Assembly (NCBI GenBank): GCA_017409345.1
Contig: JAFQSX010000014.1
Coordinates: forward strand, 1-33,212
Direction of reading: 5' to 3'
Source of the DNA: Muribaculaceae bacterium
GTDB lineage: Bacteria > Bacteroidota > Bacteroidia > Bacteroidales > Muribaculaceae
Length of the DNA stretch: 33,212 nt
The position numbers and the translations under genes are program-made. Shown here piece after piece: positions 1 through 15,279 of the stretch (position 1 is its first letter; the number at the start of each line of letters is the position of its first letter). The notes below the pieces were generated by a model. It made no database searches. It was not told the origin of the DNA and was given only the letters and a program-made list of their open reading frames with translations.

Positions 1-94
1 CGTTAGGATCATCCTTTGGTTCATCTTTTTCACATGATGTAAAACTCATGCCTAATGCCATAATTAGTAATGATATAAATTTAATCTTTTTCAT
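1..94 (-). CDS. SUMF1/FGE-fold lipoprotein, N-terminal fragment (third array copy)
   Basis: This is the start of another array member; the rest lies beyond the left edge. The ATG is the reverse complement of 92-94 and the frame stays open to the edge, giving 31 residues with a lipoprotein signal peptide and a Cys at residue 21. Positions 1-119 match 830-948 base for base, so the signal peptide, the 13-bp spacer and the last codons of the preceding gene are shared with the next copy. It is probably co-transcribed with the two copies at 108-923 and 937-1770. The SUMF1 domain itself is not visible, so the family is inferred from that identity. Confidence 0.75.
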   Translation of the reverse strand, partial: MKKIKFISLLIMALGMSFTSCEKDEPKDDPN

Positions 95-107
95 AACTTT
101 TATTTTT

Positions 108-923
108 TTACTTTCGACATACTAAGCGAAAACCGAAATTATTCCACCGCTCATCTGCATTAGCAAAATCTCGGGAAGAAACTCTACAAGTCCATTTCCC
201 ATAGACATAAGTTCCTCCCCTGCAAACAACCCCTAACCCTGTTTTAGGTCCAGTGGGATTAACTGTTGGACTTGATGCATAATAATTTTCATCATACCAA
301 TCACTACACCATTCAGCCACATTGCCATTCATATCATATATACCTAACTCATTGGGCGCTTTAGTGCCTACATGATGAGCATTATACGATGAATTACGTT
401 CGTACCATGCCACATCGTCAAGGATGTTGCTTCCTGAATATATATATCCTTTACTCATATTCCCTCCGCGGGCTGCATATTCCCATTCGGCCTCGGTGGG
501 AATATCAAAATGCTTTCCGGTGAGACTATTTAGATTTGCAACAAAATCAACACAATCCATCAATGAAACACTTTCTACCGGATGCTTAGCCATTTGTGGG
601 AACGACGGATTATACCCCATCACATATTCCCACAATTCTTGTGTCACCTCATATTTGCCAATATAAAAATCTCCCACCGTAACTTCATGTGCAGGAAATT
701 CGTCATCTTTAGGAGCTTCAGGGATTTGTTCCTCTGTAGCTCCCATCGTAAAAGTACCTCCTTTTACAAACACCATCTCATCATATGATATTTCCTCAAA
801 AATATCAAAATCAGCCTCCTCTGTAGGCGCGTTAGGATCATCCTTTGGTTCATCTTTTTCACATGATGTAAAACTCATGCCTAATGCCATAATTAGTAAT
901 GATATAAATTTAATCTTTTTCAT
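108..923 (-). CDS. SUMF1/FGE-sulfatase-fold lipoprotein, array copy 2
   Basis: Predicted lipoprotein of 271 aa with a SUMF1 (formylglycine-generating-enzyme) fold. Residues 1-20 form a signal peptide followed by Cys21 (FTSC), then an acidic Asp/Glu/Pro linker. The SUMF1 domain fills the rest, with hallmarks FVKGGTFTMG, the YEVTQELW segment, PTEAEWEYAARGG, NVAEWCSDWYDENYY, CRGGTY and a GFRLVCRK end. In true FGE two cysteines of the GGS-Y-M-C...C segment bind copper; here the first is Tyr and only the second remains, so sulfatase activation is unlikely. Many proteins with this fold, which is related to C-type lectins, bind ligands instead. Compared with the copy at 937-1770, the segment from DEMVF to GSN has 3 differences in about 117 residues, while the following 108 or so residues have 23, clustered in loops. 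It sits 13 bp after the upstream copy. Confidence 0.9.
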   Translation of the reverse strand: MKKIKFISLLIMALGMSFTSCEKDEPKDDPNAPTEEADFDIFEEISYDEMVFVKGGTFTMGATEEQIPEAPKDDEFPAHEVTVGDFYIGKYEVTQELWEYVMGYNPSFPQMAKHPVESVSLMDCVDFVANLNSLTGKHFDIPTEAEWEYAARGGNMSKGYIYSGSNILDDVAWYERNSSYNAHHVGTKAPNELGIYDMNGNVAEWCSDWYDENYYASSPTVNPTGPKTGLGVVCRGGTYVYGKWTCRVSSRDFANADERWNNFGFRLVCRK

Positions 924-936
924 AACTTTTATTTTT

Positions 937-1770
937 TTACTTTCGACAGACTAAACGAAAACCGATATTCACATAACGAGCATTTGCATTAGCAAAATCT
1001 CGATAAGAGACTCTACAAGACTGTTTCCTATAGCTATAAGTTCCTCCCCTGCAAACAACCTCTAACCCTGTTTTAGGTCCAGTGGGATTAAGTGATGGAC
1101 TTGATGCATAATAATTTTCATCATACCAATCACTACACCATTCACCCACATTGCCACTCATATCATATATACCTAACTCATTGGGCGCTTTAGTGCCACA
1201 TTGATGAGTTATTTGCGATGAATTATCGGTGTACCACGCTACATCGTCAATAATATTACTCCCTGAATATATATATCCTTTACTCATATTCCCTCCGCGG
1301 GCTGCATATTCCCATTCGGCCTCGGTGGGAATGTCAAAATGCTTCCCTGTGAGACTATTTAGATTTGCAACAAAATCAACACAATCCATCAATGAAATAC
1401 TTTCTACCGGATACTTAGCCATTTGTGGGAACGACGGATTATACCCCATCACATATTCCCACAATTCTTGTGTCACCTCATATTTGCCAATATAAAAATC
1501 TCCCACCGTAACTTCATGTGCAGGAAATTCGTTATCTTTAGGAGCTTCAGGGATTTGTTCCTCTGTAGCTCCCATCGTAAAAGTACCTCCTTTTACAAAC
1601 ACCATCTCATCGCAGGTGAGGTCTTGGAATATATCAAAATTTTCACCTACTACCGGTTGATTGGGATCTTCTTTGGGCTCTTCTTTTTCATCACTACACG
1701 ACACAAAAACCACCGACAGCATCATCGCTACCATTAGCCACAATCTTCTCTTTGCTTTCATAATTCTCAT
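937..1770 (-). CDS. SUMF1/FGE-sulfatase-fold lipoprotein, array copy 1 (promoter-proximal)
   Basis: Predicted 277-aa lipoprotein and first gene of the array in transcription order. The signal peptide runs to VFVSC (Cys25 from the start used here); an in-frame ATG at 1761 gives an equally good signal peptide, so the start is uncertain by three codons. The linker is acidic, followed by a full SUMF1 domain. Its signal peptide and linker differ from the other two copies, whereas its domain core is almost identical to the copy at 108-923. Divergent residues cluster in WYTDNSSQITHQC, GGTYSYRKQSC and NARYVNIGF. The first FGE active-site Cys is again replaced by Tyr. A predicted promoter lies at 1810-1838. 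The exact ligand or function cannot be read from sequence. Confidence 0.9.
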   Translation of the reverse strand: MRIMKAKRRLWLMVAMMLSVVFVSCSDEKEEPKEDPNQPVVGENFDIFQDLTCDEMVFVKGGTFTMGATEEQIPEAPKDNEFPAHEVTVGDFYIGKYEVTQELWEYVMGYNPSFPQMAKYPVESISLMDCVDFVANLNSLTGKHFDIPTEAEWEYAARGGNMSKGYIYSGSNIIDDVAWYTDNSSQITHQCGTKAPNELGIYDMSGNVGEWCSDWYDENYYASSPSLNPTGPKTGLEVVCRGGTYSYRKQSCRVSYRDFANANARYVNIGFRLVCRK

Positions 1771-13587: not shown

Positions 13588-15279
13588 TTACTTAAACTGA
13601 AATACATTATTTCCTGAATCTTTCTCCATATATAGTTCAAAGACCTTTCCAATCGGTCGCACATGATACACTCCACTCTCAGTCAATGTTATCTTCTTTC
13701 CTTCTGCATTTGTTATCACTATCTTGGAGCCGGCCGAAATCTTGCACACTAATGCGAAATCCAAATTTGCTCCCACCAAACTATGTTCGGTAGCAATATT
13801 CAAAGTTGAGTTATCATTTACCGTGATAAAAGCCTTATCACTCAACACCTTTTGGTCGCCTACATTCGCAAAAAACAAATCATTGAAATTCATTTTTTGT
13901 ACCACTCCACCACGCGGAGCAGTCTTTGAAGCCCCCACATAGATTTGTTTTATCTCAGCCGCGCCAACTGTGCTTCGTGTCAATAACTTCACATTTTCAC
14001 TATTCTTATCCAATGCATTATTCAACGGATTATATGCGCCATTCTCATTCAAGATATAAAGACGGTCATATCCCGCAAAATACCCCAATCCGTTATCGGT
14101 GAAATTAGCACGCATCTCAATATGATTACACCTTGTTGCTTTTACCGATGAATATGGTATCTGGCTCTTAAAACTAAAGTTCAAATATCCACATTGTGTG
14201 AGATCAATCCATGGCTGACCAATTGGCACATATCCTTCACTCAATCTTATATCATTAAAGTTATTGTGCCATGCATTATATAAAGTAATAGCCTTGCATT
14301 TAATATTTCCTTCCCCTTCAAAACCGATACTATTAAATACATTGCCATTTATCACGCCTATCGTCTTTTTATATTTATCATCAACAGGAGTAGAATAAAT
14401 TCCATATCGACACATCAATCGCCCGCCGTTAAATTGGTTTTCATTCACCCATATACGATCTCCTTTCTTGGCATTTTTTGCGCCCGATGGCATATCTATA
14501 TAAATTCCATACTCACCTATAACATACTGCCATGAGATTTTACAATACTGAATTCCACAATACCATTCTTTACCCAATTGTGGTGACAAATCAAATGCTC
14601 TATCAAAATACAGCACTTTATCAATATTTATATTTGCATTATATACATTCCCCGAAAGCAATACTCCTTTGCCTTTGAATTTTGCAGCTTGATTATACCC
14701 CGACCCTGCATTATGACGTAACTCACAAATATCAACCTCAATAAATTTCTCTTTCAATTCTATCGCTGCCCCTTCGCCTCGATATGAAATAATGCCATCG
14801 CAACGCAACTTTTGATTTTCTCCCAACACAATTGTTTCATTGGTCAAATATCGTAGATTGTCAAGCACCACCCACGATGTGCCGGCATTTTGCAATGACC
14901 GGTTTATCGCTCCACAATCATAAGCAGCACCATCTCCTTTTGCACCCCACCAATGTGCCGACACCTCGCCATTGGCAATAGCACCTTTGTCAAAGTTTAC
15001 TTTTTCACCAAATATCTGATACTTCGGTGCATCAATCATTAAACGTGAGCCTTTTATTGTTCCGGAGCCCACAAGCGCACCTCCCTCAAATTTCAATATG
15101 GAACCTGCCGCAAGCGCCACATCGCCCGAAAGCGAGCAATCACCATCAATTATATACATCGTCTGTCCTTTTTCCACAGCCGCATTAAAACTACCTTGCG
15201 ACACTCGCTTAACCGTCATTGCATTAACTTGCAATGCACATAACAACATTACTATTGCAAAATATCTTAATTTACTCAT
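13588..15279 (-). CDS. Secreted right-handed beta-helix protein (pectate-lyase-like)
   Basis: Secreted protein of 563 aa. The signal peptide is residues 1-20 (cut after VNA). A short beta-repeat stretch follows, then WWGAKGDGAAYDCGAIN at 110-126, the signature opening of the pectate-lyase-3 type beta-helix (GAKGDG...AIN). The remainder is rich in short Asn-, Gly- and Ile-containing strands consistent with stacked coils, with a small C-terminal beta region. Relatives include polysaccharide lyases, hydrolases, epimerases and tailspikes; no catalytic residues can be assigned by eye. Its place beside acetyl-transfer genes suggests it acts on the same polysaccharide, as AlgG does in alginate loci. 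Confidence 0.75.
   Translation of the reverse strand: MSKLRYFAIVMLLCALQVNAMTVKRVSQGSFNAAVEKGQTMYIIDGDCSLSGDVALAAGSILKFEGGALVGSGTIKGSRLMIDAPKYQIFGEKVNFDKGAIANGEVSAHWWGAKGDGAAYDCGAINRSLQNAGTSWVVLDNLRYLTNETIVLGENQKLRCDGIISYRGEGAAIELKEKFIEVDICELRHNAGSGYNQAAKFKGKGVLLSGNVYNANINIDKVLYFDRAFDLSPQLGKEWYCGIQYCKISWQYVIGEYGIYIDMPSGAKNAKKGDRIWVNENQFNGGRLMCRYGIYSTPVDDKYKKTIGVINGNVFNSIGFEGEGNIKCKAITLYNAWHNNFNDIRLSEGYVPIGQPWIDLTQCGYLNFSFKSQIPYSSVKATRCNHIEMRANFTDNGLGYFAGYDRLYILNENGAYNPLNNALDKNSENVKLLTRSTVGAAEIKQIYVGASKTAPRGGVVQKMNFNDLFFANVGDQKVLSDKAFITVNDNSTLNIATEHSLVGANLDFALVCKISAGSKIVITNAEGKKITLTESGVYHVRPIGKVFELYMEKDSGNNVFQFK

Follow-up and report, generated by a model that had tools for sequence, protein, structure and literature searches.

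The closest described counterpart of the locus examined here is the TvpA family of Treponema denticola, whose members combine a formylglycine-generating enzyme (FGE)-sulfatase / C-type-lectin fold with a variable tail, as do the proteins of the present array (PDB 2y3c; PMC4891356). As PMC4891356 describes that system, T. denticola genomes each hold several targets of diversity-generating retroelements (DGRs), several of them with lipoprotein signals, together with an HRDC accessory gene, and some isolates hold targets without a reverse transcriptase (RT) or template repeat (TR), which are called likely leftovers of lost DGRs. On that account orphan DGR targets are known in T. denticola. The layout of the array described below is different: the targets of strain ATCC35405 are reported as scattered over the genome (PMC4891356), and the word 'tandem' is absent from the main text of that article, whereas the copies studied here stand in tandem and undergo conversion with one another. 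In gut Bacteroides, DGRs diversify pilus tip proteins (Macadangdang et al., as cited in PMC12632263 and PMC12875486); going by these citing articles, they have in common with our array that the targets are surface binding proteins, but those targets are tip pilins and not FGE-type lipoproteins. The metagenome survey of Roux et al., as presented in PMC8144416, would miss DGRs with remote targets, and among the titles and listings of literature on Muribaculaceae with DGRs and on SUMF1 with DGRs there was no tandem FGE array. We regard the present locus as ordinary in kind and unusual in its tandem layout, with no diversifying machine found.

The window, that is, the whole stretch of DNA analysed, is the entire contig C9 (33212 bases) of a Muribaculaceae genome (G000; 2.09 Mb in 38 contigs, estimated 75% complete). 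The features of the array within it are the following, with codon numbers counted from DEMVF.

1..94, minus strand: start of the coding sequence of a third copy, truncated where the contig ends (no mismatch between window 1-107 and 830-936)
108..923, minus strand: c2 (protein P0001, 271 aa), FGE-sulfatase / C-type-lectin-fold lipoprotein, mosaic (PF03781, E=7.1e-45)
132..221, minus strand: tail of c2 from RGG to GFR (codons 188-217), corresponding by homology to a DGR variable region (codon-by-codon gapless alignment to the template and variable regions of congener G007)
369..521, minus strand: divergent tract of c2, probably recombinant, codons 88-138, including loop 1 (24/153 differences from c1)
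522..782, minus strand: tract of c2 homogenised with c1, codons 1-87 (0 synonymous changes between c1 and c2)
937..1770, minus strand: c1 (protein P0002, 277 aa), FGE-sulfatase / C-type-lectin-fold lipoprotein (PF03781, E=1.4e-44; syntenic orthologue g1 in sister species G004)
961..1050, minus strand: tail of c1 from RGG to GFR (codons 188-217), corresponding by homology to a DGR variable region

A preliminary description of this sequence had supposed that the array continues beyond the left edge, and it does: window positions 1-107 show 0 mismatches to 830-936, and a third copy starts at position 94 and runs off the contig. Contig C26 of the same assembly opens inside a further copy, ck (C26:1-411), which is followed by the more diverged last copy of the array, cl (C26:434-1315), and then by two genes that we take to be rubrerythrin-like. 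Synteny with the sister species G004 (80% complete) suggests that C9 and C26 adjoin, the junction itself being unassembled. In that genome a syntenic array of three copies (g1, g2, g3) is followed by the same two genes, by one more gene, presumably thioredoxin-like, and by a copy g4; the window aligns with it at 94% over 4 kb, and the leaders are orthologous, matching at 155 of 159 positions for c1 and g1 and at 140 of 141 for c2 and g2. Within the array, c1, c2 and ck make up a diverged sub-family (the focal copies), whose tails, together with those of g1 and g2, are of the c type. Among 397 genomes of the family, c-type tails were seen in these two genomes only (E<=1e-4); at most two candidates were scored per genome, so that copy counts are lower bounds (c2 itself is absent from the list), and the match in genome G392 covers just the query's first quarter, ahead of the tail. 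Many of the nearest named relatives of the protein come from Bacteroidales metagenome genomes; relatives on viral contigs and the majority of the 80 on genome contigs served at most as rows in alignments. A 36-nt imperfect direct repeat (83%) occurs in the intergenic DNA next to the array, at 1992-2027 and 2186-2221. Elsewhere in the window, a 563-aa open reading frame (13588-15279, minus strand) gave no Pfam match at E<=1e-10.

The C-type-lectin-like fold that had been proposed for these proteins and the comparison drawn with TvpA were both borne out. TvpA is the best solved relative by sequence (2y3c, E=9.6e-32) and by fold (rank 1 in Foldseek, E=4.2e-22), ahead of the listed formylglycine-generating enzymes, and the c2 tail aligns without gaps to that of TvpA. 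The AlphaFold2 model of P0001 has a mean pLDDT of 89.6. The model places the variable-region segment in the C-terminal part of a predicted C-type-lectin-fold protein, as expected of a DGR target. FGE (SUMF1) and GldK/PorK have a Pfam domain or fold in common with the array proteins, but the array proteins differ from both. FGE possesses a functional cysteine pair in its C-terminal RGG segment. When P0001 is aligned to 6muj, the second cysteine of this pair is kept and the first is a tyrosine; across the array this first position is variable. As for the gliding lipoproteins, P0001 scores 96.6 bits with the NCBIfam equivalog model of GldK, far under its cut-off of 350, and 45.4 bits with that of GldJ (cut-off 458.2). 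In copy g2 of the sister species (L206:11449-12264) one variable tail codon encodes cysteine, so that, probably by chance, two cysteines are spaced as in FGE. The array proteins probably serve for variable binding at the cell surface, with glycans, other cells or phage as partners.

The amino-acid differences counted by eye between c1 and c2 in the preliminary description were reproduced exactly by a codon table: 3 from DEMVF to GSN (codons 27, 67 and 72) and 23 in codons 121-224. The absence of synonymous change in window 181-360 (codons 141-200) is likewise correct as a count (11 nonsynonymous and 0 synonymous differences), but given the available sites it is not significant (Fisher p=0.073), and over codons 121-224 the two classes of change are about equally frequent per site (dN 0.150, dS 0.160, p=0.70), so the absence is merely local. 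Over the whole C-terminal half dN/dS is ~1, which counts against the explanation preferred below. Recombination, which had been offered as an alternative, is supported. Nucleotide differences between c1 and c2 rise across a sharp boundary from 3/261 in codons 1-87 to 24/153 in codons 88-138 (p=1.1e-8), and in the set c1, c2, g1 and g2 there are 38 private changes for c2 against 5 for c1, c2 being the aberrant, mosaic copy. In codons 1-87 there are 0 synonymous changes over 52.5 sites between c1 and c2, compared to 7 over 52.3 sites between c1 and g1, and the longest unbroken series of polymorphic sites with the same state in c1 and c2 extends over codons 4-25 (P=0.0002). Judging from these sequence comparisons, the N-terminal part of the two copies owes its conservation in part to gene conversion.

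Codons 88-127 of c2, by comparison, carry many synonymous changes (dS 0.525, dN 0.01). Of the three loops that had been compared with DGR variable regions, the first (loop 1) falls outside the DGR region and is mostly specific to c2: six of its seven variable codons (128-138) set c2 alone apart, and only codon 135 also parts c1 from ck, g1 and g2. Given the homogenised codons 1-87 and the divergent tract of c2, the loop 1 difference is almost wholly due to that tract. A search for the donor of the c2 tracts among the fetched loci found none closer than the sister copies. A mosaic of this kind might also be created by the assembly, if repeated copies at a contig edge were fused into chimeras or collapsed, and it is true that C9 ends and C26 starts inside the array and that window 1-107 is identical to 830-936. 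We think such an artefact improbable, however, since the sister species has the same gene order with orthologous leaders, and its g1 and g2 differ from each other at those same tail columns (8/32 of the columns that are adenine in the template described next, versus 3/76 others); the divergent tracts of c2, for their part, have no counterpart in that genome.

A DGR acting on the same protein family was found in a congener of a different species (G007). C8:29587-31428 (L233) of its assembly holds, in succession, the tail of a target gene that the contig end truncates, an HRDC gene, an RT and a template; we take IGNLTSQ and YMDD in this RT to be DGR motifs. The local variable region (VR) has 22 mismatches to the TR, 22/22 at TR adenines, and a second target on C24 has 18, of which 16 are at adenines; the locus thus combines RT, TR, accessory gene and VRs with adenine-specific mismatches, all the marks of a DGR. 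Both the target family and the position and columns of its variable region are the same as in the window's array, and the template aligns at 76% to the last copy cl. Among 12 genomes of the genus, including that of the window, a match to this DGR RT (E<=1e-8) was found in G007 only and is absent in all 4 that are at least 90% complete, the other 8 of the 12 being less than 90% complete. RT domain matches of any type (RVT_1) occur in 7 of the 12 genomes; motifs were readable at 9 of the 12 RT loci, and the others (L218, L219 and L223) were judged by their match to the G007 DGR RT instead. The core pattern of the G007 template had no match elsewhere in the 12 genomes.

The DGR interpretation of the array calls for an RT and a template in its own genome, and neither was found in the assembled, 75%-complete G000: the G007 DGR RT gave no match at E<=1e-8, and pattern and BLAST searches returned no template repeat, whether of G007, cl or c type. 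The only RT found in this assembly (C27:204381-204944, L010) matches the model of a UG24-type defence RT (PADLOC E=2.2e-258) and reads GIPQGLPQS in place of the G007 motif, and was rejected as the diversifying machine. Candidate template matches at G004:C28 and G000:C11 proved not to be templates when the sequences were inspected, and a c-type template pattern allowing up to three mismatches returned only four known copies from the 12 genomes of the genus. No HRDC gene was found in G000 either, which has little weight as no HRDC of any kind turned up there. With G000 and G004 75% and 80% complete, respectively, a DGR could quite plausibly have escaped detection, and failure to find one in these assemblies is no proof that it is lacking.

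The last copy of the array, cl, carries a variable region of the DGR type, as read from the distribution of its nucleotide differences. Compared with g4, it differs at 21/32 TR-adenine columns but at only 4/64 others (p=1e-9), where the two VRs of G007 differ at 19/32 and 2/64; when the 66 pairs formed by 12 variable regions were ranked by fewest non-adenine differences, the G007 pair came first and cl/g4 second. Third codon positions differ between cl and g4 at 3/32 sites in the tail versus 69/210 upstream (p=0.004), whereas first and second positions differ at 22/64 versus 34/420 (p=1e-7). A constant backbone with changing adenine columns is the pattern that template copying predicts. Compared directly with the G007 template, cl mismatches at 13/32 adenine and 18/76 other columns, which is not significant (p=0.063). 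The two copies occupy different places, cl preceding the two post-array genes and g4 lying beyond them, with g3 in the place of cl in G004, and outside the tail they are 82–85% identical over the domain; we therefore treat them as diverged relatives and not as clear orthologues.

The focal sub-family behaves differently. In a further difference from the T. denticola TvpA family, its backbone mismatches the known (G007) template, from which c1 differs at 57 of 108 positions, and none of c1, c2, ck, g1, g2 and g3 shows adenine bias against it (p 0.25 to 0.57). The tails of c1 and c2 differ at 11/32 adenine and 9/64 other columns, by the template of another species, and carry third-position changes at 7 of 32 codons. 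As 9 of these 20 tail differences lie at non-adenine columns and no template was found in the incomplete assembly, we rejected an active DGR on c1 and c2 as the leading reading. The preliminary proposal of a DGR target array is thus upheld for the protein family, by the DGR of the congener, and for the variable region of cl, but it is not supported for c1 and c2, which do not behave as two VRs of one DGR.

With the G007 template as reference, however, the columns that vary among the tails of c1, ck, g1 and g2 coincide with its adenines (13/32 versus 5/76 others, p=5e-5; 13/31 versus 2/41 at codon positions 1 and 2 only). The coincidence is best at register 0 of 31 slides and has a codon-shuffle P of 0.00065, and ck and g2 differ at 6/32 adenine and 0/64 other columns. 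This pattern, the cl/g4 signature and the incompleteness of both genomes are what would be expected if the whole array, focal copies included, were diversified now by one or more unassembled DGRs, the c-type copies with a second template of their own backbone. We consider this scenario, which overlaps with our preferred explanation on the array's past, to be unlikely: none of the 10 focal tail pairs comes near saturation (differences at 2 to 11 of 32 adenine columns, compared to 19 in the G007 pair), and the third-position changes between c1 and c2, the recovery of known copies only by the c-type template pattern and the lack of a DGR RT match in 11 of the 12 genomes, including the 4 most complete, all argue against it.

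Alternatively, the focal copies may be ordinary tandem paralogues with no DGR history, shaped by gene conversion and by diversifying or relaxed selection on their ligand-binding loops, in which case the coincidence with DGR columns would reflect shared structure. The near equality of dN and dS in the C-terminal half of c1 and c2, the conversion and divergent tracts, and a c-type backbone unlike the template and without adenine bias are all consistent with this. So are three control pairs of FGE orthologues without NNC-type tails, in which tails are mildly more variable than bodies (p=0.039, 0.036 and 0.0095), and shared structural constraint may explain part of the focal variation at TR-adenine columns. 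Against this reading stand a coincidence with TR adenines that is specific to register and column, the DGR signature of cl at the end of the same array, and TvpA as the closest solved relative; a history free of DGRs is possible, but we hold it to be doubtful.

The explanation that we prefer, and consider reasonably probable, is that these TvpA-like lectin-fold lipoproteins form an array that either once had a DGR or has one in unassembled DNA, and that its focal copies are changed today by conversion, recombination and selection acting at a binding face of DGR type. Tandem surface lipoproteins with an FGE-derived, TvpA-like fold would expose a C-terminal binding face, and the lineage of the window would once have had an active DGR, which has since been lost or else lies in DNA missing from the assembly. 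At present the focal copies would not be rewritten from any detectable template. Conversion between tandem copies would homogenise their N-terminal parts, recombination would import divergent tracts into c2, and DGR-type positions would be left free to vary by selection acting at the binding face. More tentatively, the focal sub-family might be viewed as a binding array founded by a DGR and now independent of the retroelement, in which positions opened by adenine mutagenesis are diversified by tandem duplication, by conversion maintaining a uniform scaffold, and by recombination and selection in the tails. The locus shows a target family of DGR type organised in tandem. The retroelement itself is rare among the genomes of this genus examined here, one of 12 (8 of them less than 90% complete) yielding a DGR RT. 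If the array has outlived its DGR, it would be a case for asking how a hypervariable binding site fares after losing the machinery that mutated it.

Further genes of the FGE type with tails related to the G007 template lie outside the array. In the window's genome, C5:2693-3448 (L002) mismatches the template at 22/32 adenine and 19/76 other columns (p=2.6e-5) and C27:230803-231534 (L003) at 20/32 and 21/76 (p=8e-4); both have NNC-type tails and are candidates for further DGR targets or leftovers. In another genome, G006, which is 99% complete and has no match to the DGR RT, an FGE-type gene at C23:101381-102041 contains one in-frame TGA and has a tail with a 76% match to the template of G007; this gene is possibly a fossil target.
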